From positions 6,100,483 through 6,164,482 of the forward strand of contig NC_087077.1 in the NCBI RefSeq assembly GCF_026151205.1: a DNA stretch of 64,000 nt, read 5' to 3'. The position numbers and the translations under genes were made by a program. This DNA is from Bolinopsis microptera. Its lineage: Eukaryota > Ctenophora > Tentaculata > Lobata > Bolinopsidae. Below, piece by piece: positions 8,024-64,000 of the stretch. How positions within the stretch are numbered: the stretch's first letter is position 1; the number at the start of each line of letters is the position of its first letter. Under the pieces are notes generated by a model, which was not told the origin of the DNA, did not search any database, and saw only the letters and a program-made list of their open reading frames with translations.

Positions 8024-8274
8024 AGACTGTCAAACTTCATTAATTTAACTACTATGGGGCTTCATGTTGGAAGTATTTTATCATTGGATCCAATTGCACG
8101 TAAAGTCCGATGAATTTCAACCGTTAATTACCTAATCAGCATTCCCCGCCTTATTTACCAGTGTATAAAGATGTATACAGGTATCGTGTTGTCATCTTAC
8201 TACTTTTGCATCCGAATTTATAATCGTTTGTCCATCTAGCGTTTCTCAAATCTGCTGTTGCGTTGTCGTCAACA

Positions 8275-22208: not shown

Positions 22209-22381
22209 TGAACAAGAGACTCATTTTCAATCAAGTTCTCTTCAACTGTCAACTAATCATTTGAAAACCCCCTCCCCCTTTGTATCACGTGGTGACCCCC
22301 ACTGTCGCTTCACTATACAGGGACGATACAGGGAGATACAGGGAGAGCCGCGCACTTCGTGCTCGGCGGGTCATACAACGT

Positions 22382-23395: not shown

Positions 23396-24585
23396 ATGGG
23401 CAGAGCGTATCTCCGGCAGCTACTAGCAGCTCTAGATGGAAACTACCCTACATCCAGGAAACCATCATCGAAGGAAGTAGTTGCCCCCACCATTCATAGC
23501 CATAACCGAGTCATGGCTAAAGAGTTACATCTCTGACGCTCAGGTGCAGATAAAAGACTATCGATCGTTTAGATCTGATAGACCAGAGAGAGTAGGAGGA
23601 GGTTGCCTCCTCTATGTTCATGACCAGCTAGTGGTGACAGAAACCGATCACTACGAGGATAGAAGCAATAACATGGTCATGTGCTATGTTAAGTCATGCA
23701 TCACCCTTTTTGCGACTGTCTACAGGCCCCCTGGAGCAGATACTTCAGGCTGGAAGAACTTACTAGACAGACTGCAAGCCAAAATAGATGCGATCTCAGA
23801 AAATACAACGGTGCCACTGCCAGACATATACGTTGTTGGAGATTTCAACTCTCCAGAGATAGACTGGGAACATGGAGGCTTAAGAAGTGAAGCCAGGTGT
23901 CAGGATTTTATAGAGTTTATAGACCGTAACTTTCTAACACAGGTCGTAAACCAATCGACAAGAGAAGGTAGCACCCTAGATCTTGTACTTACAAATGTTC
24001 CTAGGTATTTCGCAGAAGTAAAGGTGAACCCCACATCTTTATCAGACCACAGCTTGGTCGAAATTCAGCTTGGTTTTAATATGACTGGAAGAAAGAAGAA
24101 CGAAACCAGCAAGATCGACCCAAACTCCTTCAGGGCAGTTGACTATCACAAAGCCGATTTTGTGGCAATCAGTGATTGCCTTCAGAAAGTCGACTGGCTG
24201 AAGCTCTGGGAACTCTGTGACGAGGACTTGAACTCTTTTCTGGAATTGTTCAAGCTAACAGTGCTCCAGATTACCTTGGAGTTCTCCCCAAAGAAAGAGA
24301 GTGCAGCGGAGATTACCTCAAGAAAGAGAAGAGGGAATAAGCACGTTTATGTCATGAAAAGAAGACGAAGGAAGATGAATGCTAGGATACGTGCATTACA
24401 GGAAATGAATCCTAGCTCGAGTTTAATCCTAAACTGAAAACGGAGGTTTCACTGCTGTGTTACTCCGTACAGGAAGGGACCCTTGAGAAACTGAACAAAA
24501 AAGAACTCCGGGCAGTCGATGCAATAAAGAAGAACCCCAAATACTTCTTTTCGTATGCCAAGCGTCTCCAGAAGACCAGATCTAC
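23287..24585 (+). pseudogene. LINE ORF2, N-terminal part (APE endonuclease), frameshifted
   Basis: ORF2 begins in a frame overlapping the ORF1 end: IVLLNGQSV, then WKLPYIQET. It shifts near the C run at 23484 into FIAITESWLKSYISDAQ. The domain continues with DIYVVGDFNSPEIDW (the GDFN motif), LDLVLTN and LSDHSLVEI (the SDH motif). This endonuclease nicks the target DNA. A stop at 24435 interrupts the frame; the neighbouring frame then carries KNPKYFFSYAKRLQKTRS, the usual EN-RT linker. Two frameshifts make it inactive. Confidence 0.85.
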
Positions 24586-24603
24586 GCGATCCCGGTGTTG
24601 AGA

Positions 24604-24697
24604 GTTACTGGGCCGCGCTCAGCCTGTCATTCCGCCAAATCTTTATTATTATCTTTATTAATGTTTATGAACATAATAGCCTGGGGTCCCCAGGTAA
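24604..24697. repeat. Insertion in the EN-RT linker, inverted copy of the element's 3' flank
   Basis: TTACTGGGCCGCGCTCAGCC is followed by an AT-rich part and GCCTGGGGTCCCC. 27400-27481 carries the same blocks in reverse order and orientation: GACCCCAGGC ... GGCTGAGCGCGGCCCAGTAA. The insert separates KTRSTRS from VMLRDETGAL, which are contiguous in related elements. It lies where the tandem duplication starts. Confidence 0.75.
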
Positions 24698-26729: not shown

Positions 26730-27407
26730 CTACACGAACATAAGTTTGAGGTTGTAAACTACCCCCTGAATGGACCAAAAGCTCTAAGAGAGCTCCCGTT
26801 CTACCCAGAGACTGTTGAGTATACTACACCAAAAGGACACGCAATATCACCACAGGAAACTGTCAGAGACCTTGGAGTGTATGTTAGCAGCAGTAGGTCA
26901 TGGGGTCCTCACATTGAGAAGACAGTTCAAGGAGCTAGAAAAATGGCGGCTTGGACATTGAGTGCCTTTAGAGACCGGTCACAAGTAGTCATGCTGACTT
27001 TATACAAAAGCATGGTTCGCTCCAAGCTAGAGTACTGCTGTCCAGTCTGGAACCCTACAAAAGTCACAGAGATACAAAAGCTGGAGACTTGAGACAGAGT
27101 ACAGAGATCCTTTACTAGAAAGATATCTGGCTGCAGTGATCTCCAGTACTGGGACAGGCTGAAGAAGCTTAAGTTGATGTCCCTTCAGAGGCGGAGAGAG
27201 CGTTATTCTATTATTCATGTATGGAAAATTCTTAATGAACATGCTCCGAACGATACGGGCTTCGAGTTCAAGTCTCATCAAAGGCATGGTATTAAGGCAG
27301 AGATCCCAGCCATGAACAAAAACGCACAGTTGTCGGTAAGAACAGACTACGACAACAGCTTTAGAGTTAGAGCAGCTCAGCTCTTCAACGTGCTCCCATT
27401 TACCTGA
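25684..27407 (+). pseudogene. LINE reverse transcriptase, copy 2 with thumb and C-terminus
   Basis: Repeats the copy 1 RT almost exactly and continues into the thumb: RDLGVYVSSSRSWGPHI, MVRSKLEYCCPVWNP and KLET. There a TGA at 27090-27092 interrupts it. The same frame then reads VQRSFTRKISGC and LMSLQRRRERY, the usual CR1 end, stopping at FNVLPFT (27407). Differences from copy 1 include F-R-N-P versus F-S-N-P, a C-to-F change after KKRS, and three bases fewer at ARI(I)LTAC. Confidence 0.85.
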
Positions 27408-33674: not shown

Positions 33675-34012
33675 AATTTTCGATGTGAATACATAGAACA
33701 TGATAATTAGATTAGATTATGATGAAAATCTTTTAAACATACTGGCAGTGCTGATTTACAATTATCTATATGTTGGTCTTTTCTTATCTCTTAGATTAGC
33801 TAACTTATAGAATTGCGCTGCTCAAGCCACCTTTACCTTATAGCTATACATTTTCTGGAATATTCCGTACATCCCGTACATTAGTGTTACATATTCTTAA
33901 TAGTGCTTCTATCAACCTTGCTATTAATCTACGATCTATCAACGGTTACCTGTTTTGACATTCCATTAATTAGTCAATTTAACTGTCACATTTGAGATTT
34001 ATCTGTTATCTG

Positions 34013-35263
34013 ATGGGTTCAAAATCGATATTCACATTTTCTAAAATTGACGATACTCCTCGTATTGATTCTTACTTTTCTTCTGACAGTGCTTTCTCTC
34101 AAAGTGAATCTATTAAACGTGCACTAAATTCAAGTGCAAATAGTTCTGATAGTATAACTAGTGAATCTGGCAAAGAACCTCCGGCTAAAATGCCAGTTAC
34201 TCACAACTTTCAGTCCAGTATTCGTTTTGATGTTGATAAAGCAAGTGATAACCCGTCCGAACTTACGGATTTAAAATCTCTTATTGTTAGCTTGCACAGT
34301 AAATTTGATCAACATCTAAGTGAGATTAATCCTCAACTTCAAGATATTAATAAACGTTTATCAGCTCTTGAAGAGCATTCCAATACGAATATTAGTTCTG
34401 TAACTCAACTTAGAGAGCGTGTAGTGCAGATCGAGCAGAGCGAGTCGAACCTTGAACAGAGAGTCAGAGAGCTTGAGTCAGTTGGGAGTGAGGGTAGAGA
34501 GGATCAAGAGGAGTGGAAGTGGAGTCCCACAGGATCTGACCGAGTTTCCGTAAAACTTTTAGGTGATTCCAACTCCTCAGGTAAGATCAAGTTTGGGGAC
34601 GGCAAAGGAACACTCGGTCCCGCACTTCCAGGGTCCAGTGTTCACTGCCCAACACTCTCCAACCTCACTAACCCAGATTCCCAAGAGTTCGAGAACGTTT
34701 CAGATGTCGTGATTGCAGTAGGGACAAACGACCTCAGACAGCAAGGCAGCAAACCAGAGGAGCTGGTGGAGAACACCTTCACCTACGTTGCAGCTCTGCT
34801 GAAGAAACGCCCCGAGATTCACGTCCTCCTCCCTGGAGTCCTTCCTATCTGCACGCCTGGTAGTGAGACTAACTCAAAAGTTAAGTTATATAATCATTTT
34901 ATCAAGACTATGTGTAACTCCCACATTCGATTAACCTACATTGATACCAAAGTCTTTATGGCAAATGATGGATCTCTGAAAACTGGACTTGCAATGGGTA
35001 CTGAAGACCCCCTTCATCTAAATACCAGTGGTTTAAAGTTGTATTTTAGTAGGATAAAGTATGCTTTACGTGCCCGTCATGACCTCCCAAATTCCAGGAG
35101 AGTGAAAAGTAACACGAGCCCTAGACCCAGGATTAGAGCAGGAGGAGAAGAGCAGATGGATGCTGAACAAGGATCTCAGAATGACAGAGGTGGAAATAGT
35201 TACCACAGAGGACGGGGAGGTGGAACTCGCAGAGGACGGAACTCCAACAGAGGAAGAGGATGA
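34013..35263 (+). CDS. LINE ORF1 protein: coiled coil, SGNH-type domain, RGG tail
   Basis: 416 residues from the ATG at 34013. Residues about 75-165 form a coiled coil (heptads in LVSLHSKFDQHL, VTQLRERVVQIEQ and LEQRVRELE) that should oligomerise the protein. From about 180 an SGNH/GDSL-like hydrolase fold follows: LLGDSNSSG (block I), VVIAVGTNDL near 235 (the GxND block) and DPLHLNTSG near 332 (the D-x-x-H block). The end is rich in RGG/RG repeats, suited to RNA binding. Esterase domains of this type are known in ORF1 of CR1-like LINEs. Block I has the serine, and Asp/His are present, so it may be catalytic. The spacer after ORF1 (35264-36181) holds no other gene. Confidence 0.85.
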   Translation: MGSKSIFTFSKIDDTPRIDSYFSSDSAFSQSESIKRALNSSANSSDSITSESGKEPPAKMPVTHNFQSSIRFDVDKASDNPSELTDLKSLIVSLHSKFDQHLSEINPQLQDINKRLSALEEHSNTNISSVTQLRERVVQIEQSESNLEQRVRELESVGSEGREDQEEWKWSPTGSDRVSVKLLGDSNSSGKIKFGDGKGTLGPALPGSSVHCPTLSNLTNPDSQEFENVSDVVIAVGTNDLRQQGSKPEELVENTFTYVAALLKKRPEIHVLLPGVLPICTPGSETNSKVKLYNHFIKTMCNSHIRLTYIDTKVFMANDGSLKTGLAMGTEDPLHLNTSGLKLYFSRIKYALRARHDLPNSRRVKSNTSPRPRIRAGGEEQMDAEQGSQNDRGGNSYHRGRGGGTRRGRNSNRGRG

Positions 35264-36181
35264 ACGGTATATCTCACTCTATCCCACGGTCAGAGTGTTG
35301 TGTTCTAAATTATAAACCACTTTACAAAGCTTAATTCTGAGTAGCATCTTCCTTTTCCTAGTACGCAGTGTAACGTTATAATTTTTACTTAATTTAGGAG
35401 CTTCTGTCCCCCCACAATTTTTGCGATATCTCGTGACTACCTAGTATTATACTACTCATCGACTGTTCGGTATATTTCCAAATCTAACAACTTCATGGCA
35501 GTTTACAATGTGCCATTTATTAGTTTTTTCATCATGTCGTACGACACATTACCCACCTTTATCAGGGTTTATCTTGCCCGCTCACAAACCTCTTCTCTTA
35601 GCAGCTTCACTGCACCATCTTGCCGGCTCATACACTCGTCACCATGTCCGGGTTCATTCACAGCAGGCACCAGGTTCAGGGGTTGGGCCGGGCTGGTCAG
35701 GCGGTGTGGTGTTGGTTGATGGGGGGGTTTGTTGTTGGGTGATGGTGTGTGGGCTTGGGCCAGGTGGTGGCGAGGTCAGGTTCACCTTTCACCTCTCACA
35801 TCCAGCCACTTGAGCCTTTCTAGCCAGATTGATTTCCCTCTGACTTCTATATTGGAGAGTATCAGCTTAGAAGCTTATAGTATTAGGGGGACGCCCCATC
35901 ACGGGATTTCTAGGACTTGTTTAAGCGTATAAAATACATTTACTATATGGGCTATAGCAGCGTTATTTCAGCAATTTCTTGTTTAATGATTCATACATCT
36001 ACTAGTAATAAGATGTGTGATTGCGTGTGTTTTTATCATTTTGTTTTTTTGTCATTGTACAATAACTACTACGTCATTCTTTGCAATATTGGGAGAAACG
36101 GTACTAGACTCAATACTAGCTTTACTCGTCACGAACTTAGTGAAAATAACTTTAGAGCGGCGGCTAATTTCAGAATTTACA

Positions 36182-39100
36182 ATGTCAGAAAATGACAGTG
36201 TAGGAGCCAGTCTTAGGGTAGGTTCTTTCAATTGCAATGGCCTCGGAAACCCCGAGAAACGTAGATCGGTTCTTGGTTGGCTACTAGCTAAACCAGAAGA
36301 TATTATTATGGTACAAGAATCTCACTCTGTAGTTGAAACGGAAGACTTCTGGAGGACAATCTGGGGGGGAGATATTTATTTCAATCATGGTACCTCTAAG
36401 TCCACTGGGGTTACATTCCTGGTCAAACCCAATTCTAATATTAAAATTTGCAGTCACAGGATCATCACACAGGGACGTGTATCACTGTTAGAAATTGAGA
36501 AGGATTCCATCAAGTATTGCTTGGTAAACGTCTATTGTCCTAATAGCAATGATACTTATGTTGTAGAGAACTTGTTCCTGGAAACTCTAGGACGTACAAG
36601 GGATGATTATCGTATCTTGGCTGGGGACTGGAATACTATCTTAAATAATAATCTTGATAAATATGGTGGTAATAGTTCCCACAGTAATACTAAGCGTCAG
36701 CAATATTTGAACCAGGTGACCGCTGATTATGGCATCAGTGATATCTTCCGTCTTAGTAGGGGTAATGAGCGTGTTTATACTCACGTAAATAAACAGCACA
36801 AAACCCAAACACGCCTAGATTTCTTCCTTATAGATGATAGTCTGGTTAATTATCCGGTCTGTAACGCAGATATTAGTCATGGTTTTCGATCTGATCACAG
36901 CTACATTTCATTATCTCTACAGGGTTCCCCCATTAAACGTGGAATAGGATATTGGAAACTTAATAATAGCCATCTAAATAATGAGTCGTTTTTGAGTAAT
37001 GTACGGGAGATTATCAATGAAACTGCTGACAGTAATTTTGATTCGTACTCGGGACTCTGGGACGTGATTAAAATGAAAATTAAAGATTTTGCGATCAGAT
37101 TCGGAAAAAAAGAAAAGAAAGAAAAAGTTGCAAAAAAGAAAAAAATATCCTCTGATATTGAAGGGGTTAAAAAGATAACTGATTTTATGCAGAAAGATGA
37201 TCTGCGCAAAAAATTGTATGACTTGGAATCCCAGCTTGATGGTATCATTAAAGCTGAGGTTAACGGGGCCATGACCAGGTCTAGGATTCAGTGGACAGAG
37301 GAGGGTGAAAGGTCCACCAAATATTTCTTCGGGCTGGAGAAAAGTAGAGCTAAAAAAAAGTCTATTACCAAACTTATTAACAGCGATCAGAGTGTACTAC
37401 GCACACAGCAGGATATTTCTGAGCACGTAGTTAACTTTTATCAGGACATCTTTAGCTCTACGAATCCAAACGAACATGAAATAACCGATTATATTAATTC
37501 CAGTAACCTAGATACTATTGATCAGGAGAACGCTGATAGGTTAGATAGGCCAATTTCCCTCCTGGAGATGGATAGTATTATCAGTAAATTTAAGAAAAAT
37601 AAATCTCCAGGGTGGGACGGCCTCACTGCTGAATTCTACAAAGTATTCTGGGAGGACATTAAGAATATCCTATTTAACTCCTTTTTAGAGTCGGTTGATA
37701 ATGGGGTTATGTCACCTTCACAACGTCTAGGAATTATAACACTTATCCCGAAACCTAAAACCCCCATTGAGTTAAACTATATAAAGAACTGGCGACCAAT
37801 CACCCTTTTGAATGTAGACTATAAGATATTCACTCATATTATAAAAAATAGGATCTTAAGTTCACTTCCAACACTTATTAGTACAGCCCAATCCGGGTTT
37901 CAAAAAGGGAAGAGTACCAGCGATAATCTGATCTTAATGTATCTAACCTTAGAACATTACCATGAGAACCAAGAGGATACTGGTATGATTATGCAGGTCG
38001 ACCTCCAACGGGCTTTCGACTCGGTCGAACATAAGTTTCTTTTCAGTGTCTTGGAAGGTATGGGGTTTGGAAATTATTTAATCAACTTGGTGAGAGTGGC
38101 ATTTCACGCTGGTATGAGTTACGCTAACGTTAACGGACACCTTAGCAGCCCTGTTCACATACTTCGTGGCGTCCATCAGGGGAGCCCCCTTTCCCCAATT
38201 CTTTTCCTCCTAGTGTCCCAGGTACTTAGTAATAAGCTACAGTATAACCCTTATATTAAAGGCCTCAGCATTAATGGTATCGACATACTCATGAGTCTGT
38301 TTGCTGATGACACGGATCTGTACCTGGATCCCTCCCAGGCTTGCGTAGATGCAGTTATACTAGAGCTCAACCTGTTCGGTCAGCACTCAGGCTGTAAGCC
38401 CAACATCAGTAAAACTAAGTGCATACCTTTAGGAGCTACCAGAGACAACACTAGTCTTCGAAATTACCTTACCAGTACATACGGGGAAGACATGGTAGCT
38501 AACGAGTTTACAGCATTAGGAGTCAAGTTCGACAACACGTCTAGTGGAGCTGATCTCTGCAAAATGAACTACCACAGTAAACTTAGTAACGCCAGCACCG
38601 CTATCAACACCTGGAGTAAGAGAGACTTAACTCTGATAGGAAAGTGTACAATTATTAAATCTCTTATTCTTTCCCAGTTCACTTACCTTATCATACCACT
38701 AGAAACTCCTGATACTAACACCATCAGTAAAATAGACACTATGATATTTCACTTCTTGTGGGGTTGTAAGAGGGATAAGTTGAAACGTGATATTGTTACT
38801 TCTCCTCGTGAATGTGGGGGTCTAGGTCTCTTCTATACTAACGATTTTATTATAGGTTTAAAAGTGTCACTTATAGGAAAAGTTATCGATCCTAATTTCC
38901 AACATGCCTGGAAAAATATTATCATCAATCAGCTTTTACACCCAAATATACCAACTGTGTGTATAGAAAACTGCCTCACATTAAAGAATACTGGTTTTAC
39001 CTTTAACCTTCTTCGCCAGTATAAGCTTTGGAAGTCTATTTCTTCACAGTCAAGTAAGAGTACAGTCAACCACTGTGTGTGGGGAAGCGACGTAATAACG

Positions 39101-39964
39101 GACATTGGCTCCAAGCTCTGGAACGATATTCTTATTGATAGAAATATCATCTATCTTTCTGATTTCGTTTCAGAGGAAGGTAACCTCTTAAGTTTTCAGC
39201 AATTTCTGAGAAAGTGGGGCCAAACAAGTAGTATAATCTCTTCGACTCAATATGCGAGTATAAAATTGGGAATACGTCGATTTAATAATACCGATACGTT
39301 TACAAGTAACATTACATTTATCGATACCCAACTTTCACTTCGCTTTTGGGGAGGTAGGAATACCCCCAACTCTAGAGATACTCCTCTCACTATCAAAGGT
39401 AGAAACATTAGAGATACCATGTCTAAGCGTTTAGATCCCAGCACCCTTCCTCCAATGAGGAACTGGAGTGCTAACCTCTCCTTAACGGATATTGATTGGA
39501 TTAGTATTTTTACGGATATTTTTACTTCTTTCTCAAATAACTTCAAACTTATTCAGTACCAATATAAGCTCCTTCACCGGATTAGTACTTGTCGGTACAT
39601 GAGATATAAAATGAAGATTGAAAAAGATAGTCCAAATTGCTCGTTATGTAATCACAACCTCGAAACTATCTCTCACATATTTATTGACTGTCCAGCCACA
39701 AGCTCTTTCCTACAGGGAGTAAATCTGTTTATTAGATCGAATATTGACGCAAATTATGACGACCCATATCGCCACTATTTGATTTGCTTAAATCACAGAG
39801 ATAAAAGTGTTAACTTCATAAATTCGGTTTGCTGTTGGTTTATTGGAAGGAGTTTCCAGAACAAGGAACCCCTATTCTGGGAGCGATATCTTAAACATCT
39901 TAAGCTTTTCTTATTAGGTGAAAAACCGGATATTATACGGTGTCTTAAAGACGTTATACCTTGA
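36182..39964 (+). CDS. LINE ORF2: APE endonuclease and reverse transcriptase (Tx1/L1 clade)
   Basis: 1260 residues from the first ATG in frame. The endonuclease spans about residues 13-245: SFNCNGLGNPEKR, MVQESHS (Glu), ILAGDWNTIL (GDWN), TRLDFFLID and RSDHSYISL. RT: LIPKPK and NWRPITLLNVDYKIF, QVDLQRAFDSVEH near 606 (motif A), GVHQGSPLSPILF near 664 (motif B) and LFADDTDLY near 707 (motif C). The C-terminus has a zinc knuckle, CSLCNHNLETISHIFIDC, near 1153. All catalytic residues are present and no stop interrupts the frame. The NWRPITLLN-DYKI and GVHQGSPLSP blocks point to the L1/Tx1 group, many of whose members insert site-specifically. It nicks DNA and copies the element RNA in the nucleus. 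Confidence 0.93.
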   Translation: MSENDSVGASLRVGSFNCNGLGNPEKRRSVLGWLLAKPEDIIMVQESHSVVETEDFWRTIWGGDIYFNHGTSKSTGVTFLVKPNSNIKICSHRIITQGRVSLLEIEKDSIKYCLVNVYCPNSNDTYVVENLFLETLGRTRDDYRILAGDWNTILNNNLDKYGGNSSHSNTKRQQYLNQVTADYGISDIFRLSRGNERVYTHVNKQHKTQTRLDFFLIDDSLVNYPVCNADISHGFRSDHSYISLSLQGSPIKRGIGYWKLNNSHLNNESFLSNVREIINETADSNFDSYSGLWDVIKMKIKDFAIRFGKKEKKEKVAKKKKISSDIEGVKKITDFMQKDDLRKKLYDLESQLDGIIKAEVNGAMTRSRIQWTEEGERSTKYFFGLEKSRAKKKSITKLINSDQSVLRTQQDISEHVVNFYQDIFSSTNPNEHEITDYINSSNLDTIDQENADRLDRPISLLEMDSIISKFKKNKSPGWDGLTAEFYKVFWEDIKNILFNSFLESVDNGVMSPSQRLGIITLIPKPKTPIELNYIKNWRPITLLNVDYKIFTHIIKNRILSSLPTLISTAQSGFQKGKSTSDNLILMYLTLEHYHENQEDTGMIMQVDLQRAFDSVEHKFLFSVLEGMGFGNYLINLVRVAFHAGMSYANVNGHLSSPVHILRGVHQGSPLSPILFLLVSQVLSNKLQYNPYIKGLSINGIDILMSLFADDTDLYLDPSQACVDAVILELNLFGQHSGCKPNISKTKCIPLGATRDNTSLRNYLTSTYGEDMVANEFTALGVKFDNTSSGADLCKMNYHSKLSNASTAINTWSKRDLTLIGKCTIIKSLILSQFTYLIIPLETPDTNTISKIDTMIFHFLWGCKRDKLKRDIVTSPRECGGLGLFYTNDFIIGLKVSLIGKVIDPNFQHAWKNIIINQLLHPNIPTVCIENCLTLKNTGFTFNLLRQYKLWKSISSQSSKSTVNHCVWGSDVITDIGSKLWNDILIDRNIIYLSDFVSEEGNLLSFQQFLRKWGQTSSIISSTQYASIKLGIRRFNNTDTFTSNITFIDTQLSLRFWGGRNTPNSRDTPLTIKGRNIRDTMSKRLDPSTLPPMRNWSANLSLTDIDWISIFTDIFTSFSNNFKLIQYQYKLLHRISTCRYMRYKMKIEKDSPNCSLCNHNLETISHIFIDCPATSSFLQGVNLFIRSNIDANYDDPYRHYLICLNHRDKSVNFINSVCCWFIGRSFQNKEPLFWERYLKHLKLFLLGEKPDIIRCLKDVIP

Positions 39965-40467
39965 TGACCATTTTATACCCAAAGTTCTGGATCCACTATA
40001 CACTCTTGTTTACTTATTCTCTCGAAATTACAGCCGTGTCTTACCTTTACCCTTTATTTCACAAGTTGTAGCCAGTGGAGTTATCTCCACTACTAGTATT
40101 GATATAGAGTCATATTTAAAACCAGTAGTATCTCTCCTTTTTCTCTCCATCTTATGTGCATTTTATTACTCTATATCCACTGACTTTATTCGACGTATTA
40201 TCTAAAAGAATAAAAAAATTTGTGTGCGTGTGTTTTTATATTTATTTTGCTACGGCGCATGTGAAACCCCAGGGCATCCAGCACCGGAGAAGCTGAAATG
40301 ACACTCTCTGAACCCTTGGTGCCGCTCAGATTTTGCCTCTTGGCTGGCAAGCCGAGTCTTGATCGATTAACTCAGCTTCTTCGGTACAACACAGACCGGA
40401 GGGTACTATTAGCCGCTTTGCCGGTGGTATCCTCCTGGTGTCCTGGGGTTTGGCAGGTTCCTCATTT

Positions 40468-40484
40468 AAAAAAAAAAAAAAAAA

Positions 40485-40521
<37 letters not shown>
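40468..40521 (+). other. Poly(A) tail of the Tx1/L1-like LINE
   Basis: About 54 bp of A with one T, directly after the 3' UTR. The 3' UTR (39965-40467) has an inverted pair, ACCCCAGGGCATCC near 40266 and GGTGTCCTGGGGTTT near 40436, that could form a hairpin before the tail. Confidence 0.85.
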
Positions 40522-40523
<2 letters not shown>

Positions 40524-41282
40524 ATACTGGCTACAAAAAGCATTTTAGTAGTCCGAAGCTGTTCCAACATAAATTGAAACTGAGGTAAAAAGATGCCTAG
40601 CATCAAGTTAAATTTTAAATCATTATGACTGAGTTATGAATATCAAAATAAGGTAGGTGGTCGTTTCGAAGTAAGAATCCTGCAGCTGCACTGAAATATT
40701 GAAATAAATTTTTTTTCGTGCACATACAGAATGAATGGTTAATAATTTAATATATATGTAGACCAAGGTCTGTGCACGGGATGCTTCCTGGAAGAATACC
40801 AATCAAATAATATGATATATATGAGTAGTAACCATATTTACTATGCAAAATGCCCCAACCACATAGTGTAAATTTATATAGAATTCAAATTCCATATCAT
40901 CATTAAACCTCAATACCTAGTCAATATAATAGCCCAAGCAAAATTAAATAACTTCTTATATACCTTACTGTCATACTACAAATTAATTAAACAATTGAAA
41001 TCTGTTGACCAGAGAATAAATTTCTAAGCCTAATGCAAGTGAAATAATTTAGATGCAATAATGAATGCCTAATGTGAGTATCATTTGTCAATGTCCTTGT
41101 AAAAAAGTCTGTACAAGAGATATGAGTAACTAATATAGAAGAAAAAACAGGAAGTTGTCGTCTGTTGTAAAATAAATAAAATATCTAGAATATAAATTAG
41201 AATATAAAATACATTCAGTCAATGTGTCGTCAATAAACTGTACAATTATCAAATGTTAAAACTGGGTGATACAGTCACCAAA

Positions 41283-41390
41283 AAAAATACTAAGTATGAT
41301 AAGTTAATAAATTAAATGTGGTCTATAAAACTACCACTAAGTATAATAGGTCAATAAATTAAAAGTGGTTTATAAAACTACCACTGTGGG
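41283..41390. repeat. Direct repeat in the 3' UTR
   Basis: Two units of about 53 bp, each with TAATAAATTAAA(T/A)GTGG and TATAAAACTACCACT, lie head to tail downstream of ORF2. LINE 3' UTR repeats may serve RT recognition; that is inference. Confidence 0.7.
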
Positions 41391-41526
41391 AACTGGGAAC
41401 CCCTTCTCCAGTTAAAACATGTCAGTCATGTGCAAAATCAATCAGAATGGTAAGGTGGTAAAAAAGGGAATATCTTTTCGATACATCAATTATATATGCC
41501 TCAGATTTAAAAGAATTAGAAGTTAC

Positions 41527-44502
41527 TTAGTTATCGACGACTATGATTGCAGTGTAAAATTTGTCATATGAATTGTCGACGGTATAATTAGGGTCTGTTG
41601 TTATAGATGATAGTAGCTGTTTCTTATACGAATCACTAAAGCTTTTAACATCGGGCAGATTTCGTAGATCTGTTGGAACATTATTCCAACATTTTGCCCC
41701 CAAGTATTGAAAGTTTTTATGTGATGTTGATCTATTGACATAAAGGTTGCAGCTTTCGCCGCTCCTACTACCTCCTGATATGTAACTAAATTTGTTCATA
41801 AAGTTTGTAGGACAATTGTCATGGATGATTCTAAACATATAATTTGACAGGTGGAGTTGTCGTCTAAGATGGAGTGGTAACCATTTCATGTCTCTATAAA
41901 CATTAAGGCTGCTCTCTGTTTTTGGAACGTTGAGAGCTATTTTGGCTACCTTTTTGTACAGAGTGTCAAGTTCAGCAAGTTTTGTCTTGCCAGCTCTACA
42001 ATAGATCGTGTCTAAATAATCGAATTGTGGCAACATGAGTGCATTGGCAAACATTTTCCTATATTTAATGGGTAGCAGTGCTTTACTTCTATACATGGCA
42101 CCAATTCTCTTCATGACCTTCCTAATAATATAATCTACATGGCTTTTGAAGTTTAATTTACTATCTAGAATGAGGCCAAGATATTTTGTCTCTTTGCACT
42201 CCTTGATTGTGAAAGTTACCTCATTACAATCAATGGTTATTTCATCATGTTGGTCAACAGAATCAAACAATAGGAATTCAGTCTTCTTTTCATTGAGTGA
42301 TAATTTATTAACACTGAGCCATTTAAAGATTGTCATAAGTTCTATTTTCATGTTTATAAATGTGCTTCTGCAGGTTTGATCAAAGAATAGTGCACCATCA
42401 TCTGCAAATAGAAAGGGCTTAGATAGGTTACAGGCATAAATGATGTCATTTATGAAGATACTAAATAATATAGGCCCAATGATGCTTCCTTGTGGTACAC
42501 CACTCAGAACTTCTAAAAATGAGCTTAGATTGCCATTGATCCTAGTGCATTGATATCTACAAGATAAGAAGTTCTTAAACCAGGTTAAAGCAATGCCACC
42601 AATTCCATAATATGCCAATTTTTGAAGCAATATTTCATGATTCACTGTGTCAAAGGCCTTCTTAAGATCAAGAAAGATGATTCCTGGTTTATAAGACTTA
42701 GATTTACTCATATATATTTCGTCCATCAGATCGTACATCAGATAAGTTGTGGAGTGATTTTTCCGAAAGCCATATTGATGCCGGATGAAAAGTTTGTTCT
42801 CTTCCATGTAATCAGTGAGTTGCTTGCCGACAAAGTATTCTATAAGTTTTCCTACAAGTGGAAGGATGGATATTGGCCTGTAATTATTAGGATCATCTTT
42901 CATTCCTGCCTTATGGATGGGAGTTACTCTAGCTTTTTTACAAAGGGTTGGTACAACACCTGTATTAAGGCTCAGATTGACAATGTGGGTCAGTGGCTCA
43001 ACTATGTGTGGTACAGCTTGCTTAAGTAAAAATAGAGGCACATTGTCATATGAGGCCTTGTCATTCTTGAGCGTTTCGACATACATTAGGATATCAGTTT
43101 CATTTATTTCTTGGAATCTATCAAATGAGATATTAGAAGTTCTAGGAGGTAAAAAATCAGTAAAACTAACTCTTTCAATATTGGGGGCCTGATTTTGTAA
43201 TCTTGATCCAACATTTGCAAAATGAAAGTTAAATAGCTCAGGATCATTCTCATTGATAGTTTGACAATTAGTTGTACCAGGGGTCATATTTGATGCCAGT
43301 TTGATAGTTTTCCATATCCCTTTAAGATCATTCTTGGCACTTTTAACTTGTAGATCATCGATTACATTAGCCTTTTTGCAGGTTTTAGCTAATTTATTTC
43401 TAATATTTCTCTGAATCTTGTAGCAATCCCAGGCCTCATTACACTTTATACATTTGCTACATGTACCACATTTATTGCAATTTCCATTGTCTCTCTTATC
43501 CTTCTTTTTACGGAATTTCTTTAGAAGAAAATGTGTATGATTAATGGCATTTAAAAGTTCAGTAGAAGGTTTATGTATGAACTTTTCATGCCTTTCTATG
43601 GTCTTGCAAGGGAAGAAGGTTGCATATGCCTGTTCAATATGATGACAAAGGCCAGCAGTGATAGCTTCAACATCTGTACTTTCCAATAGTGGACTGTAAT
43701 CAGAACAGGTATCTAGATAGTCTAAGAATTGTTTAACATTACGTTTACAATGATTTCTAATTTCAACCTTCTCAAATTTAGGAGCTATAGGTACTTTACA
43801 ATCTATCTCACACATAATAGCTTGATGATCTCCAATACGTTCATCAAGAACAGAAGATTGGACAAAATCTGCATAACAGTTAGTGAATATTACATCAATA
43901 GTAGTCTGGGTAAAATTGTCTCCACGTTTAGCAACTCTAGTTATCCCTTGAATGGTTTGAACTAGATTGTAACATCTCAAGGTCATATCTAATTTTTTGT
44001 ACTGGGTGGATGAGATATTATTCTGGTCAATGTTTATATCCCCAATCCAGATAACCTTTTTCCCATTCAATTTTTTCATGCAAAAATGAATGTATTCAAT
44101 AAAGTTATCAACACTGCAATAATTTCCAGAGCGATAGAAGCAGCAAACATTGATCTTGCTATTCTTAAGCTTCACCCATAATGCTTCAATGTTATCAAGC
44201 TTACTATCCATAACTAATTCTGTGTAAGCTAGTTTTTTGTTTATCATTAAGCCACAACCACCCCTAGAACTGTTTGGCCTGTCGCATCGCATAAGGTTGA
44301 AGGAGGAAGGAATATTTATGGTGTCTGTGTCAATAGTATCATTAAGATTCATCTCATTTAGGGAAAGTATGTCTAATTTATGATCTCTAATAAGTTGGGA
44401 AAGTTCATTACTTTTAGCTAAATTGAGAAGCCCTCCTTGAATGTTACAATGACCAATGCAGAGGTTGTGAAACCTATCAGCTGCATTATTAAAATTTGTC
44501 AT
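41527..44502 (-). CDS. LINE ORF2: APE endonuclease and reverse transcriptase (CR1/L2-like)
   Basis: 991 residues from the ATG at 44502. Endonuclease: IGHCNIQGG near 16, ILSLNEMNL (Glu), VIWIGDINIDQ near 154 (GDIN), TTIDVIFTN and ERIGDHQAIM, where GDH replaces the common SDH. A Cys cluster, CNKCGTCSKCIKC, lies in the linker near residues 345-360, an unusual place for a zinc-binding motif. RT: NNYRPISILPLVGK, GIIFLDLKKAFDTVNH near 610 (motif A), SGVPQGSIIGPILF near 669 (motif B) and LFADDGALFF near 699 (motif C). The thumb has YLGLILDSKLNF, and the end has WNNVPTDLRNLP. No frameshift or stop interrupts it. It mobilises the element by nicking DNA and reverse transcribing from the nick. Confidence 0.93.
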   Translation of the reverse strand: MTNFNNAADRFHNLCIGHCNIQGGLLNLAKSNELSQLIRDHKLDILSLNEMNLNDTIDTDTINIPSSFNLMRCDRPNSSRGGCGLMINKKLAYTELVMDSKLDNIEALWVKLKNSKINVCCFYRSGNYCSVDNFIEYIHFCMKKLNGKKVIWIGDINIDQNNISSTQYKKLDMTLRCYNLVQTIQGITRVAKRGDNFTQTTIDVIFTNCYADFVQSSVLDERIGDHQAIMCEIDCKVPIAPKFEKVEIRNHCKRNVKQFLDYLDTCSDYSPLLESTDVEAITAGLCHHIEQAYATFFPCKTIERHEKFIHKPSTELLNAINHTHFLLKKFRKKKDKRDNGNCNKCGTCSKCIKCNEAWDCYKIQRNIRNKLAKTCKKANVIDDLQVKSAKNDLKGIWKTIKLASNMTPGTTNCQTINENDPELFNFHFANVGSRLQNQAPNIERVSFTDFLPPRTSNISFDRFQEINETDILMYVETLKNDKASYDNVPLFLLKQAVPHIVEPLTHIVNLSLNTGVVPTLCKKARVTPIHKAGMKDDPNNYRPISILPLVGKLIEYFVGKQLTDYMEENKLFIRHQYGFRKNHSTTYLMYDLMDEIYMSKSKSYKPGIIFLDLKKAFDTVNHEILLQKLAYYGIGGIALTWFKNFLSCRYQCTRINGNLSSFLEVLSGVPQGSIIGPILFSIFINDIIYACNLSKPFLFADDGALFFDQTCRSTFINMKIELMTIFKWLSVNKLSLNEKKTEFLLFDSVDQHDEITIDCNEVTFTIKECKETKYLGLILDSKLNFKSHVDYIIRKVMKRIGAMYRSKALLPIKYRKMFANALMLPQFDYLDTIYCRAGKTKLAELDTLYKKVAKIALNVPKTESSLNVYRDMKWLPLHLRRQLHLSNYMFRIIHDNCPTNFMNKFSYISGGSRSGESCNLYVNRSTSHKNFQYLGAKCWNNVPTDLRNLPDVKSFSDSYKKQLLSSITTDPNYTVDNSYDKFYTAIIVVDN

Positions 44503-44657: not shown

Positions 44658-46313
44658 CTAATGGTGTGCATGATACTTCAAGTGCCTTGCTAATTTAACT
44701 ATGCCATAATCATTGAGATGGACATTATCAGCTCCATAACTACTAAAAAATGACGATTTTCTAAAGCCTTTCTTATCACTAAACAAGAAACGATTTGTCT
44801 CGGTTGAGAGCAGTTTTACATAGGTGTATTTTCTTTGCAGATTTGATATACACTCATTGATATCAGTTATAACCTTGTTTCTGGAGAAACTCTCCCGAGG
44901 TAATAAGTTAACAATTTTAATATCAGCTCCAGGTGCCCACTTGTGAAGGAAAAGTACAAGTTTTTCAATACAATTGTTTGTAAAGTCAAGAGCTCTAGCA
45001 TCACCAGAAAAACTATCAGGGCACAGAAGTTTAGTCCTCATGTTGCGAGGGCTGTTCAGGATAGAGTCCACGTCATTTGTACCACACATAAGTACAATGC
45101 TTTTCACATTATTGGTATTAAGAGTGTCTTTTCTTACATCTGATTGAAACCGTTCATTGATTGCATTGGCTGTGGCACCAGGGTAGCTGAATACATGTGC
45201 CTCATGATGTTTGGACGATAGCTTTTCTCCCTCTAATTTGGAGAACATACTAGAGCTAATGTAGACACACAAAGATTTACCAGAATGTTCTATTGATCTA
45301 GTCTTAGGGGCCGAGGGTTCAGTGTTCTTAACTTGACTGGAAACATCAGACAGAGTAGATAAGGTTGCGCTGCCATCAATTAGGCGCAGAGTAATGCTTA
45401 TTCTCATGGTTTCAGACTTGTCCTGGATGAGGCTGTGTTCAAAGCTGGTCTGGGATTGTCTGGTCATATTCATTATGTCACCATGGGAGAGGGTGAGGTC
45501 AGCAATATGAGCTCTAAGTTTGGATCTGAAGCTTAGGACTCTAGTAGCCCCTAAAGAGATGGTGGAGATCATGGAGCCTGGTGAAATTGACCTCTCGTCA
45601 TCCGAGTGAAAGGGAATTCCTTGCTGACCATTTCTATACTTGGTAATCATAGCACTATTGAATTTCAACTTTGGGAACTGTGAGCGTAAGTGTTCTAAAA
45701 TAGACTTTAGGTATGGATTGTCTGCTACTGGCCTTGTGTTATGAAAGCCTCCATTGTAAGCGTAGGGAAAGTCCCCGTAATATGCAACTGCCCTATTCTC
45801 AAACTTATGAGTATAGTGGGTTTCTATATCTAACTTGGCAGTGTCAACAAACTGAAAAACTCCTCGACTCAAATCTTGGTATGGATTGATAGAGTTGGTC
45901 ACATCATTGTCACCATAATTTACAGAGTGTTTGGGATTTTCCAAATTGATAATTTCTGCTGAATGTTCACTGTCTTCTGCTAATTTGGATAGCTCTTGGG
46001 TTAACTCAGAAACAAGATGCGAGGATGACCTATTACTGAGGGGAACATTGATAGAATGTTCACAGTGATCAGGTACCTGGGGCAACACAGGGATAAGTGA
46101 ACCATCGCTGAGGGGAACTTTGAGTGCACTGTCACTTTCTGATAATTGTTTATAGAGAAAAGAAATTTGCCGACGAAGACTATCATTCTCTCTTAATAGA
46201 GATAAACAATTTGAACATTTATCAGTAGGACAAGAGCCGTTGCTGGGGAATTTAACAGAATTCCCTCGATATCTCAGATTGTAATGTCTTGAGCCAACTG
46301 GTATTCTAGACAT
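44658..46313 (-). CDS. LINE ORF1: AlkB-type dioxygenase plus SGNH hydrolase
   Basis: 551 residues from the ATG at 46313. Residues 28-36 hold a CPTDKCSNC cluster, followed by a short coiled coil (about 38-60). Residues 145-312 match the AlkB family of 2-oxoglutarate/Fe(II) dioxygenases. The iron ligands H236-x-D238 (FHSDDE) and H293 (FEHSL) are present. The 2-oxoglutarate/base-side motif RxxxxxR is R304-R310 (RISITLR). The landmarks SLGATRVLSF and LSHGDIMNM also fit. Residues 347-551 look like an SGNH hydrolase: VYISSSMF (Ser block), YPGAT, MCGTNDVD (GxND) and NVHLND (D-x-x-H). AlkB enzymes remove methyl groups from nucleic acid bases; in plant RNA viruses they protect the genome. Here the domain may repair or demethylate LINE RNA or its DNA target, which is inference. 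It sits 155 bp before ORF2, as expected for ORF1. Confidence 0.88.
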   Translation of the reverse strand: MSRIPVGSRHYNLRYRGNSVKFPSNGSCPTDKCSNCLSLLRENDSLRRQISFLYKQLSESDSALKVPLSDGSLIPVLPQVPDHCEHSINVPLSNRSSSHLVSELTQELSKLAEDSEHSAEIINLENPKHSVNYGDNDVTNSINPYQDLSRGVFQFVDTAKLDIETHYTHKFENRAVAYYGDFPYAYNGGFHNTRPVADNPYLKSILEHLRSQFPKLKFNSAMITKYRNGQQGIPFHSDDERSISPGSMISTISLGATRVLSFRSKLRAHIADLTLSHGDIMNMTRQSQTSFEHSLIQDKSETMRISITLRLIDGSATLSTLSDVSSQVKNTEPSAPKTRSIEHSGKSLCVYISSSMFSKLEGEKLSSKHHEAHVFSYPGATANAINERFQSDVRKDTLNTNNVKSIVLMCGTNDVDSILNSPRNMRTKLLCPDSFSGDARALDFTNNCIEKLVLFLHKWAPGADIKIVNLLPRESFSRNKVITDINECISNLQRKYTYVKLLSTETNRFLFSDKKGFRKSSFFSSYGADNVHLNDYGIVKLARHLKYHAHH

Positions 46314-46613
46314 AGTTTATCACAAAAAGATGCTACTGTTCGAAATTTAGTTAATGATTACAGTACCTTTGTAGCACTCCGGAGGATAAGGATAAGTGAT
46401 GTCTGATAATCTTTAGGTGATAGATGGGAGTAAACTGCTTTAAAAACCGATGTCTGATAGTCCTTAGGATGTCTTTAAGATAACTTTATCGTGCAACAAC
46501 CATTTACATTGACATACAACCTGTAATGGTCGTTACATTTACCGAGGCATTAGTTCCCACTGGGGGTCCTCAAATTATTTGTTATATAGTAGTGTTGAAA
46601 GTATTAAAGTAGT

Positions 46614-46631
46614 AAAAAAAAAAAAAAAAAA
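46614..46631. repeat. Short A tract
   Basis: About 18 A between GTATTAAAGTAGT and GTATTAAAAA, near the presumed 5' edge of the LINE. Confidence 0.7.
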
Positions 46632-46702
46632 GTATTAAAAATTAACAGCAGTAAGCGTAGTACATTCCATGAAAAGTTAGTTGCTGAGAACAGGACTTGA
46701 AC

Positions 46703-46946
46703 CAGTGGCGTAACGAAGGGCCCTGCTGACCCTGCTGTGCAGGGGGGCGCTGTCTTATGGGGGGGGGGGGGCACCAAATCGTCGTTTGAATGTGGGACAA
46801 TTTTGAAAAAATTTTGAATTACCGGCGTATCCTCTTATATTGCCTAATTTGTTCAATTTTAGGGAGGGGCACCAAAAGGAGAGGGGGCGCCAACAGGGGG
46901 GCACCTTTTCGGCAGGGGGGCGCCAACAGGCGACGTTACGCCACTG
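46703..46946. mobile_element. hAT-type MITE with 8-bp target duplication
   Basis: The ends are CAGTGGCGTAACG and CGTTACGCCACTG, a classic hAT terminus. Flanks are ACTTGAAC (46695-46702) and ACTTGAAT (46947-46954), an 8-bp duplication with one mismatch. The 244-bp body is G/C-homopolymer rich and has no transposase. A second copy is at 50038-50268. Confidence 0.9.
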
Positions 46947-58042: not shown

Positions 58043-58391
58043 GTGTACATTTCAAAGAAAAATGATACATTATTCTCAAATTTTGAAATGAAAATGAATT
58101 TCAAATCTTTTGGTTTTACCAAATTCAATATTGTGACTTCAATTACTACCCCAGCTTTAAACATTAAAGCTAATTTATTTTTACAAGTTTTACAATGCTA
58201 ATATGTTAAGGTAAGCCGCGCAAGTTATAAGCAAAACAATTTTTGTTTCTGCGCGGAGAATTGATTGCGGAGTAAATTTAAGATCTGAGCTGGGATATGA
58301 AGTCCGTGCGATATCATCGTGGATATGTGAGAGCACGTTTCCTTGATTTGTGTAGTGGATTTGTAGTGGATTTCACAGGTGTAGTGGATTT

Positions 58392-60468
58392 GTGTTCCGG
58401 GGTAGGTGGAACATGTTTTGGTGGTTAAATAGGTAGTACGTGACCCAAACGATCATTAAAACCGAGTTTCGACCTCCCAACCCACTCAGGCCACTCCCAG
58501 GGGCCACGCCCATCCCAAAATTACTGAAAATTAGGTAAAATCAAGACCGAAAATCTTTACCCCCGTAGTGCATTTATGTTCCGGGGTAGGTGGAACATGT
58601 TTTGGTGGTTAAATAGTTAGTACTTGTCCCAAACCATCAGAAAAACCGAGTTTCGACCTCCCAACCCACTCAGGCCACTCCCAGGGGCCACGCCCATCCC
58701 AAAATTACTGAAAATTAGGTAAAATCAAGACCAAAATTCTTTACCCCCGTAGTGCATTTATGTTCCGGGGTAGGTGGAACATGTTTTGGTGGTTAAATAG
58801 TTAGTACTTGTCCCAAACCATCAGAAAAACCGAGTTTCGGCCTCCCAACCCACTCAGGCCACTCCCAGGGGCCACGCCCATCCCAAAATTACTGAAAATT
58901 AGGTAAAATCAAGACCGAAAATCTTTACCCCCGTAGTGCATTTATGTTCCGGGGTAGGTGGAACATGTTTTGGTGGTTAAATAGTTAGTACTTGTCCCAA
59001 ACCATCAGAAAAACCGAGTTTCGACCTCCCAACCCACTCAGGCCACTCCCAGGGGCCACGCCCATCCCAAAATTACTGAAAATTAGGTAAAATCAAGACC
59101 GAAAATCTTTACCCCCGTAGTGCATTTATGTTCCGGGGTAGGTGGAACATGTTTTGGTGGTTAAATAGTTAGTACTTGTCCCAAACCATCAGAAAAACCG
59201 AGTTTCGACCTCCCAACCCACTCAGGCCACTCCCAGGGGCCACGCCCATCCCAAAATTACTGAAAATTAGGTAAAATCAAGACCGAAAATCTTTACCCCC
59301 GTAGTGCATTTATGTTCCGGGGTAGGTGGAACATGTTTTGGTGGTTAAATAGTTAGTACTTGTCCCAAACCATCAGAAAAACCGAGTTTCGACCTCCCAA
59401 CCCACTCAGGCCACTCCCAGGGGCCACGCCCATCCCAAAATTACTGAAAATTAGGTAAAATCAAGACCGAAAATCTTTACCCCCGTAGTGCATTTATGTT
59501 CCGGGGTAGGTGGAACATGTTTTGGTGGTTAAATAGTTAGTACTTGTCCCAAACCATCAGAAAAACCGAGTTTCGACCTCCCAACCCACTCAGGCCACTC
59601 CCAGGGGCCACGCCCATCCCAAAATTACTGAAAATTAGGTAAAATCAAGACCGAAAATCTTTACCCCCGTAGTGCATTTATGTTCCGGGGTAGGTGGAAC
59701 ATGTTTTGGTGGTTAAATAGTTAGTACTTGTCCCAAACCATCAGAAAAACCGAGTTTCGACCTCCCAACCCACTCAGGCCCACTCCCAGGGGCCACGCCC
59801 ATCCCAAAATTACTGAAATTACTGAAATTATTGAAAATTAGGTAAAATCAAGACCGAAAATCTTTACCCCCGTAGTGCATTTATGTTCCGGGGTAGGTGG
59901 AACATGTTTTGGTGGTTAAATAGTTAGTACTTGACCCAAACCATCAGAAAAACCGAGTTTCGACCTCCCAACCCACTCAGGCCACTCCCAGGGGCCACGC
60001 CCATCCCAAAATTACTGAAATTACTGAAAATTAGGTAAAATCAAGACCGAAAATCTTTACCCCCGTAGTGCATTTATGTTCCGGGGTAGGTGGAACATGT
60101 TTTGGTGGTTAAATAGTTAGGACTTGACTCAAACCATCAGAAAAACCAAGTTTCGACCTCCCAACCCACTCAGGCCACTCCCAGGGGCCACGACCATCCC
60201 AAAATTACTGAAATTACTGAAATTATTGAAAATTAGGTAAAATCAAGACCGTAAATCTTTACCCCCGTAGTGCATTTATGTTCCGGGGTAGGTGGAACAT
60301 GTTTTGGTGGTTAAATAGTTAGTACTTGACCCAAACGATCAGAAAAACCGAGTTTCGACCTCCCAACCCAATCAGGCCACTCCCAGGGGCCACGCCCATC
60401 CCAAAATTACTGAAAATTAGGTAAAATCAAGACCGAAAATCTTTACCCCCGTAGTGCATTTATGTAGG
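58392..60468 (+). repeat. 184-bp satellite array, forward
   Basis: About eleven tandem copies. Starts of TTCCGGGGTAGGTGGAACAT recur every 184 bp from 58577 to 59681; later units are longer (194-204 bp) through extra TTACTGAAA units. Copies are almost identical. No coding potential. The same monomer is inverted at 62260-64000. Confidence 0.97.
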
Positions 60469-60496: not shown

Positions 60497-61440
60497 GGTA
60501 TTGCGAAGGGGAGGTCTGCCTTCCGATATCGCATTACAAAGGGTAACCCTCGAGTCCAAAATCGTATATCGAAGGGTAGGTGCGGACTTCGAAAACCGAA
60601 AAAAATATTTTTGGCTCAGAATGATCAGAGTAGCATGAAACATGAACAAAAGTAGTTTCCAAGAAAACTTTGAAAATTTTTGACTTAGAAAATTTTCGGT
60701 CCGAGTCATTCTCGATACGTACCTCTGAAAGCAGAGCTCCCGCTTCCGAGCTCGTATTGCGAAGGGGAGCCCTGCCTTCCGAGATCGCATTACAAAGGGG
60801 AACCCTCGAGTCCAAAATCGTATATCGAACTTCGAAAACCGAAAAAAATATTTTTGGCTCAGAATGATCAGAGTAGCATGAAACATGAACAAAAGTAGTT
60901 TCCAAGAAAACTTTGAAAATTTTTGACTTAGAAAATTTTCGGTCCGAGTCATTCTCGATACGTACCTCTGAAAGCAGAGCTCCCGCTTCCGAGCTCGTAT
61001 TGCGAAGGGGAGCCCTGCCTTCCGAGATCGCATTACAAAGGGGAACCCTCGAGTCCAAAATCGTATATCGAACTTCGAAAACCGAAAAAAATATTTTTGG
61101 CTCAGAATGATCAGAGTAGCATGAAACATGAACAAAAGTAGTTTCCAAGAAAACTTTGAAAATTTTTGACTTAGAAAATGTTCGGTCCGAGTCATTCTCG
61201 ATACGTACCTCTGAAAGCAGAGCTCCCGCTTCCGAGCTCGTATTGCGAAGGGGAGCCCTGCCTTCCGAGATCGCATTACAAAGGGGAACCCTCGAGTCCA
61301 AAATCGTACTTCGAAAACCGAAAAAAATATTTTTGGCTCAGAATGATCAGAGTAGCATGAAACATGAACAAAAGTAGTTTCCAAGAAAACTTTGAAAATT
61401 TTTGACTTTGAAAATTTTTGACTTTCAAAATTTTTGAGAA
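60497..61440. repeat. 243-bp satellite array
   Basis: Three near-perfect units plus partial ones, with period 243 (for example GAAAATTTTTGACTTAGAAA near 60674, 60917 and 61160). Because 243 is a multiple of three and the unit lacks stops in several frames, long open frames appear on both strands. They carry no domain and are an effect of the period. Confidence 0.95.
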
Positions 61441-62259: not shown

Positions 62260-64000
62260 GGTTGACAAGTACTAACTATTTAACCACCAAAACATGTTCC
62301 ACCTACCCCGGAACATAAATGCACTACGGGGGTAAAGATTTTCGGTCTTGATTTTACCTGGATTTCAGTAATTTTGGGATGGGCGTGGGCCCTGGGAGTG
62401 GCCTGAGTGGGTTGGGAGGTCGAAACTCGGTTTTTCTGATGGTTTGGGACAAGTACTAACTATTTTACCACCAAAACATGTTCCACCTACCCCGGAACAT
62501 AAATGCACTACGGGGGTAAAGATTTTCGGTCTTGATTTTACCTAATTTTCAGTAATTTCAGTAATTTCAGTGATTTTAGTAATTTTGGGATGGGCGTGGC
62601 CCCTGGGAGTGGCCTGAGTGGGTTGGGAGGTCGAAACTCGGTTTTTCTGATGGTTTGGGACAAGTACTAACTATTTAACCACCAAAACATGTTCCACCTA
62701 CCCCGGAACATAAATGCACTACGGGGGTAAAGATTTTCGGTCTTGATTTTACCTGGATTTCAGTAATTTTGGGATGGGCGTGGCCCCTGGGAGTGGCCTG
62801 AGTGGGTTGGGAGGTCGAAACTCGGTTTTTCTGATGGTTTGGGACAAGTACTAACTATTTAACCACCAAAACATGTTCCACCTACCCCGGAACATAAATG
62901 CACTACGGGGGTAAAGATTTTCGGTCTTGATTTTACCTAATTTTCAGTAATTTCAGTAATTTCAGTGATTTTAGTAATTTTGGGATGGGCGTGGCCCCCG
63001 GGAGTGGCCTGAGTGGGTTGGGAGGTCGAAACTCGGTTTTTGTGATGGTTTGGGAGAAGTACTAACTATTTAACCACCAAAACATGTTCCACCTACCCCG
63101 GAACATAAATGCACTACGGGGGTAAAGATTTTCGGTCTTGATTTTACCTGGATTTCAGTAATTTTGGGATGGGCGTGGCCCCTGGGAGTGGTCTGAGTGG
63201 GTTGGGAGGTCGAAACTCGGTTTTTCTGATGGTTTGGGAGAAGTACTAACTATTTTACCACCAAAACATGTTCCACCTACCCCGGAACATAAATGCACTA
63301 CGGGGGTAAAGATTTTCGGTCTTGATTTTACCTAATTTTCAGTAATTTCAGTAATTTCAGTGATTTTAGTAATTTTGGGATGGGCGTGGCCCCTGGGAGT
63401 GGTCTGAGTGGGTTGGGAGGTCGAAACTCGGTTTTTCTGATGGTTTGGGACAAGTACTAACTATTTACCACCAAAACATGTTCCACCTACCCCGGAACAT
63501 AAATGCACTACGGGGGTAAAGATTTTCGGTCTTGATTTTACCTAATTTTCAGTAATTTCAGTAATTTCAGTGATTTTAGTAATTTTGGGATGGGCGTGGC
63601 CCCTGGGAGTGGTCTGAGTGGGTTGGGAGGTCGAAACTCGGTTTTTCTGATGGTTTGGGAGAAGTACTAACTATCTAACCACCAAAACATAAATGCACTA
63701 CGGGGGTAAAGATTTTCGGTCTTGATTTTACCTGGATTTCAGTAATTTTGGGATGGGCGTGGCCCCTGGGAGTGGCCTGAGTGGGTTGGGAGGTCGAAAC
63801 TCGGTTTTTCTGATGGTTTGGGAGAAGTACTAACTATTTAAACACCAAAACATGTTCCACCTACCCTGGAACATAAATGCACTACGGGGGTAAAGATTTT
63901 CGGTCTTGATTTTACCTGGATTTCAGTAATTTTGGGATGGGCGTGGCCCCTGGGAGTGGCCTGAGTGGGTTGGGAGGTCGAAACTCGGTTTTTCTGATGG
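62260..64000 (-). repeat. 184-bp satellite array, inverted, running off the window
   Basis: About nine copies of the same monomer on the opposite strand (CCACCTACCCCGGAACATAA near 62296, 62480, 62694, 62879, 63089, 63273, 63488, 63855, with one copy lacking it near 63687). Two monomer types alternate: a short one with TTACCTGGATTTCAG and a long one with CAGTAATTTCAGTGATTTTA. Confidence 0.97.

Follow-up and report, generated by a model that had tools for sequence, protein, structure and literature searches.

An intact LINE of Bolinopsis microptera with an ALKBH2/3-like AlkB domain fused to the esterase in a type IV ORF1

The proteins encoded by the first open reading frame (ORF1) of type IV long interspersed nuclear elements (LINEs; e.g., CR1/L2 elements, including zebrafish ZfL2-1) contain an N-terminal zinc finger/zipper or coiled coil, a weakly conserved linker and a C-terminal SGNH esterase, and ORF1 lies upstream of an ORF2 encoding an apurinic/apyrimidinic-type (APE) endonuclease and a reverse transcriptase (RT) (available parts of PMC4120745 and PMC3905857). 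As stated in the accessible text of PMC3905857, the esterase is usually preceded by predicted coiled coils, the linkers are poorly conserved, and none of the esterase-type ORF1 proteins (ORF1ps) in RepBase at that time had a structural RNA-binding domain. Among other retrotransposons, a Ty3/gypsy element of Phalaenopsis orchids carries an ALKBH5-like ORF whose product demethylates N6-methyladenosine (m6A) in vitro (PMC9289625, available part). The element described here, on the reverse strand of a 64,000-nucleotide stretch of the genome of the ctenophore Bolinopsis microptera (positions 6,100,483 to 6,164,482 of NC_087077.1; hereafter, the window), is an intact two-ORF LINE in which ORF1 has the type IV (esterase) layout plus an ALKBH2/3-like AlkB domain. 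By the definition given in PMC4120745, under which a zinc finger/zipper accompanies the esterase in some cases, this ORF1 belongs to type IV: the esterase, the CxxC/helix region and the position upstream of an APE-RT ORF2 are all found. Unlike type IV proteins, it contains an AlkB domain of about 175 amino acids (aa) between the helix and the esterase; the word AlkB is absent from PMC4120745 and PMC3905857. The features of ORF1 are as follows.

44658-46313, reverse strand: ORF1, 551 aa, intact frame with the order CxxC/helix, linker, AlkB, linker, SGNH
46131-46217, reverse strand: ORF1p aa 33-61, C33-x2-C36 and a leucine-bearing helix (aa 34-61), a zinc finger/zipper by analogy
45372-45896, reverse strand: AlkB (2-oxoglutarate (2OG)- and Fe(II)-dependent dioxygenase) domain, ORF1p aa 140-314
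45600-45608, reverse strand: predicted iron ligands H236-S-D238, aligned with the HxD of ALKBH2 and ALKBH3
45435-45437, reverse strand: predicted iron ligand H293, from conservation
45384-45404, reverse strand: R304-x5-R310, predicted 2OG binding, from conservation
44661-45281, reverse strand: SGNH hydrolase domain, ORF1p aa 345-551, with S355, G379, N413, D529 and H532

A profile search started with ORF1p identifies PF13532 (2OG-FeII_Oxy_2) with E=7.3e-19 and 69.2 bits (cutoff 31.2). The initial annotation, made from the sequence alone, had reported the AlkB residues H236-x-D238, H293 and R304-x5-R310 and the SGNH blocks in an intact 551-codon frame, all of them correctly; of the profile matches expected for the two domains, the AlkB match is well founded, whereas the Lipase_GDSL_2 match (E=1.9e-4, 22.4 bits) lies below the curated cutoff of 32.9. 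The anticipated jelly-roll fold is recovered as well: the predicted structure of the AlkB domain includes the double-stranded beta-helix, and the top fold matches are ALKBH2 and ALKBH3, tied, with about 23-31% identity; clustering of the ligands was assessed by superposition and alignment rather than by coordinate measurement. The ORF1 family profile detects ALKBH3 (5e-25), ALKBH2 (9e-23), E. coli AlkB (5e-6) and ALKBH5 (0.007), so that ALKBH5 is not the closest in sequence, as it should be for an ALKBH5-type m6A demethylase; in a single-sequence search of PDB, the best match to ORF1p is ALKBH2. In the profile alignment, an FNS motif and the YGE-x-PYxY lid are common to ORF1p and ALKBH3. ORF1p differs from both ALKBH3 and ALKBH2 in that its AlkB domain is joined to two further parts, an N-terminal helix and an SGNH domain. 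When the AlkB piece was searched by itself, one near copy was retrieved among 42 candidates, but this search requires shared exact 5-residue words and thus is no proof that cellular relatives are lacking.

A protein search with ORF1p yields 213 relatives at E<=1e-3; the 120 listed relatives were examined, and one of them is named, a protein of the ctenophore Mnemiopsis leidyi. All were found through similarity to ORF1p, so that the conservation described below is partly a sampling effect. The alignment (n=92) consists of the window protein and 91 of the 120, with 29 omitted by hand under no strict rule (mostly near-duplicates, shorter proteins and odd builds). The AlkB domain was expected in other copies and relatives of the element, and PF13532 is indeed present in all 120, including two 99% identical partial proteins; the HxDxE motif is found in 120 and the RxSxTxR motif in 119. 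One relative, P0241 (190 aa, 94% identical), diverges inside the AlkB domain, before H293. None of the 92 aligned sequences deviates at H236, D238, E240, H293 or R304, or at the lid residues Y184 and Y186, and R310 is present in 91. The ligands H236, D238, H293 and R304 all fall within the 21 invariant columns among the 175 of the AlkB domain (hypergeometric p=1.6e-4). Pairwise identity is about 44-46% in AlkB and SGNH and about 9-17% in the linkers, and, across the 92, pairs with higher identity in one domain tend to have higher identity in the other (r=0.80, Mantel p 0.001), as expected for co-inheritance. The two domains share a single frame in ORF1 of the window and in every one of the 91 relatives of the alignment. 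Eleven relatives (P0044-P0051, P0053, P0054 and P0056) are about 99% alike and come from contigs of differing size; they may represent several copies within a single genome or else a single locus sequenced in more than one assembly, so that recent amplification does not follow from their similarity. The numbers of variable sites per domain were not used given that the set included an outlier, P0055 (42% identical).

The C-terminal domain of ORF1p shows the SGNH fold, and the block residues S355, G379, N413, D529 and H532 are each present in all 92 aligned proteins, with block I reading SSSM in 74 and GDSM or GDSL in 15. Of the 120 listed relatives, 114 contain a DxxH[LM] motif and 9 carry a precomputed GDSL match; a sequence search of PDB with the SGNH piece alone gives no match up to E 10. 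At the N-terminus, where the AlphaFold2 model of ORF1p contains a predicted helix, C33 and C36 are each conserved in 89 of the 92 sequences, L46 in 85 and L53 in 88, and a CxxC motif occurs within the first 80 aa in 102 of the 120 listed relatives. By analogy with the type IV proteins, we infer that this CxxC probably binds zinc.

ORF2 starts 155 bp downstream of ORF1, and the remainder of the element is arranged as follows.

41527-44502, reverse strand: ORF2, 991 aa, APE-type endonuclease and RT, intact frame
43882-44448, reverse strand: endonuclease domain, ORF2 aa 19-207 (Exo_endo_phos, 2e-7)
42169-42912, reverse strand: RT domain, ORF2 aa 531-778 (RVT_1, 6e-36)
41280-41385, reverse strand: 47-bp tandem repeat, about 2 copies, downstream of ORF2, presumably the 3' untranslated region

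R2 proteins and LINE-1 ORF2p are among the best PDB matches to ORF2; these matches, which also include retron- or intron-type RTs and others, do not assign the RT to a clade. Comparison of the flanks (46330-46720 and 40523-41480) detects no exact direct repeat of at least 9 bases, and Rfam (gathering threshold) and tRNA scans of the window give no matches. A protein search with ORF2 finds 151 relatives at E<=1e-10. Near-identical proteins are known for both frames, namely the partial ORF1ps P0001 and P0002 (99%) and the ORF2p P0121 (98%). Among the 120 listed ORF1 and 120 listed ORF2 relatives, there are three pairs on contigs of identical size, including two on large contigs (834,619 and 203,281 bp). 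In a jitter control, the mean number of such pairs is 0.68 and the maximum is 6, so that the total of three is within chance; the weight of the pairing lies only with the two large-contig matches (33 ORF1 and 14 ORF2 contigs exceed 10 kb), which the control did not separate. Given these two exact matches, the pairing of an AlkB-containing ORF1 with ORF2 very probably recurs elsewhere. Scans of viral and prokaryote contigs with the ORF1 alignment produced 94 and 37 pattern matches, respectively, with zero confirmed relatives. One protein that is 52% identical to ORF2 (P0184) has been deposited under a Tenacibaculum (bacterial) genome bin, perhaps as a eukaryotic contaminant.

The ORF1ps of LINEs are expected to bind the element RNA. 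The function that we tentatively favor for the AlkB domain, with a probability just short of an even chance, is removal of N1-methyladenine (m1A) and N3-methylcytosine (m3C) from this RNA, which would aid reverse transcription. Under this scenario, ORF1p would self-associate via the N-terminal helix and assemble on the element RNA, and the AlkB domain, using Fe(II), 2OG and O2, would demethylate the two bases in the RNA and perhaps also in the nascent complementary DNA (cDNA). Both modifications hinder RTs, so their clearance would help ORF2p to copy full-length templates in target-primed reverse transcription. The SGNH domain would mediate association with lipids or membranes, a role proposed for ZfL2-1 ORF1p. 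The R2 RT derives from a non-LTR (long terminal repeat) retrotransposon. In work with this enzyme, m1A affected the cloning efficiency, and AlkB treatment stripped m1A and m3C and boosted most 3' tRNA halves (PMC12140624, available part).

Several observations weigh against template demethylation. The same part of PMC12140624 reports that, in the R2 RT-based ordered two-template relay (OTTR) procedure, full-length tRNAs were captured untreated and AlkB changed the capture of intact tRNAs modestly, so that the R2 RT is hindered but not stopped by m1A and m3C. Directly after HxD (position 239; 45597-45599, reverse strand), 45 of the 92 sequences have D and 44 have N, as if there were two specificity classes, and given this split, the specificity may differ from that of ALKBH2 and ALKBH3. 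In addition, the lid residue Y186 is replaced by C in P0056, a relative outside the alignment.

Alternatively, the AlkB domain could act on DNA, repairing 1mA or 3mC in the target strand, in displaced single-stranded DNA or in cDNA (e.g., 3mC made by the DNA methyltransferases of the host). The status of ALKBH2 as the best single-sequence match and as a joint top fold match is compatible with this possibility; furthermore, the 3mC that DNA methyltransferases introduce is repaired by ALKB2, whose loss in eukaryotes tends to accompany the loss of CpG methylation, with many arthropod exceptions (PMC7343188, available part). Nevertheless, action on DNA seems unlikely to us. ORF1p, from general knowledge of LINEs, is expected on the element RNA. 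Moreover, the position of ALKBH2 F102, which we take to be the duplex-probing residue, is occupied by E164 in ORF1p and by mostly polar residues in the family (D 30, E 23, S 22, C 7, N 4; n=92), although the match lies near an alignment gap and F102, numbered according to the entry title, is alanine in the aligned 4mg2 variant. The polar character of this column suggests a preference of the ORF1p AlkB domain for single-stranded substrates.

Erasure of m6A from the element RNA as a means of escaping m6A-based host control, along the lines of the proposal for the orchid Ty3/gypsy element, appears to be a rather improbable function given the position of ALKBH5 far behind ALKBH3 in the family profile search. 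In HeLa assays, m6A promotes and ALKBH5 suppresses LINE-1 (L1) (PMC7873242, available part), so that erasing m6A would not obviously help a LINE. According to the initial annotation, the AlkB domain might be directed against a host defence based on methylation; no test run lent support to this part of its reading, whereas the complete AlkB and SGNH domains that ORF1 of this intact LINE encodes, and their retention by many relatives, are borne out.

A further possibility is that nucleic-acid binding is the main task of the AlkB fold, with catalysis being secondary. The domain follows the N-terminal helix and precedes the esterase, in a class of ORF1ps without a recognizable RNA-binding domain, which fits this idea, but the invariance of the three iron ligands and R304, together with R310 in all but one of the aligned sequences, is not expected under pure binding, and we regard this explanation as quite improbable. 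An artefact, i.e., a host AlkB gene next to a LINE or an assembly join, is hardly credible in view of the single AlkB-SGNH frame in the window and 91 relatives, the three same-size contig pairs (two large), and the eleven nearly identical relatives on contigs of different sizes.

Thus, template demethylation by ORF1p remains the preferred function, and the broader proposition that this is a long-lived animal LINE lineage with its own template-cleaning, ALKBH2/3-like demethylase fused in ORF1p is also a tentative one, to which we assign somewhat less confidence. If it is true, methyl marks, whether caused by damage or placed by the host, would be a real barrier to retrotransposition, and the AlkB domain would make up for the lack of an RNA-binding domain in esterase-type ORF1ps. 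Esterase-type ORF1 is a poorly understood class, and a conserved, apparently catalytic base demethylase in one of its lineages gives ORF1 a concrete enzymatic function that can be tested and suggests that LINE copying is limited by methylated bases in the template RNA.

The window contains two additional retroelements. The second LINE (33992-40522), on the opposite (forward) strand, encodes an ORF1 of 423 aa that combines a GDSL domain with coiled-coil-like stretches, and an ORF2 of 1315 aa with an endonuclease, an RT and a zf-RVT match slightly below the cutoff; a 55-base A-rich run (40468-40522) is possibly its poly(A) tail. The third retroelement (22280-27092, forward strand) includes an endonuclease frame (23481-24437) and two RT frames (24595-25710 and 25710-27092) sharing 99% identity across some 340 aa, a tandem duplication or an assembly artefact; its RT is 41% identical to that of the AlkB-containing LINE over 207 aa. 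Other features are an uninterrupted protein-kinase frame of 292 aa (8263-9138, forward strand), a 112-aa protein-kinase fragment (2644-2979, reverse strand), and a frame for a rhodopsin-type seven-transmembrane receptor (9820-10809, reverse strand; 7tm_1, 6.7e-10, profile positions 57-247 of 260). The receptor and kinase frames are consistent with an animal genome. Satellite arrays with periods of 184 bp and 395 bp (58381-60465 and 62264-64000) flank a 243-bp array (60586-61418).

The matches listed in a search of the open-licence full-text literature, which did not extend to Repbase, include no AlkB in a LINE. A type IV LINE ORF1 in which another conserved enzyme accompanies the esterase appears to be new. 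Its relatives have clearly been sequenced repeatedly, and an unpublished or Repbase description may exist. Additional ORFs of rotifer retroelements encode GDSL esterases and exonucleases, and the words AlkB and dioxygenase are absent from the paper describing them (PMC5408684). Plant Flexiviridae resemble the LINE described here in that AlkB is carried by an RNA-based parasitic replicon, but their replication is unrelated, and PMC544882 contains no words beginning with transpos-, retro- or reverse transcri-. The natural pairing of AlkB with a non-LTR RT has a counterpart in tRNA sequencing, where the two are combined by hand (PMC12140624, available part). The nearest precedent is the AlkB lineage of the orchid Ty3/gypsy elements, likewise retrotransposons with an acquired AlkB-type dioxygenase; these, however, are plant LTR elements with an ALKBH5-like additional ORF (PMC9289625, available part), whereas in the Bolinopsis LINE an ALKBH2/3-like domain is fused to the SGNH domain within ORF1.
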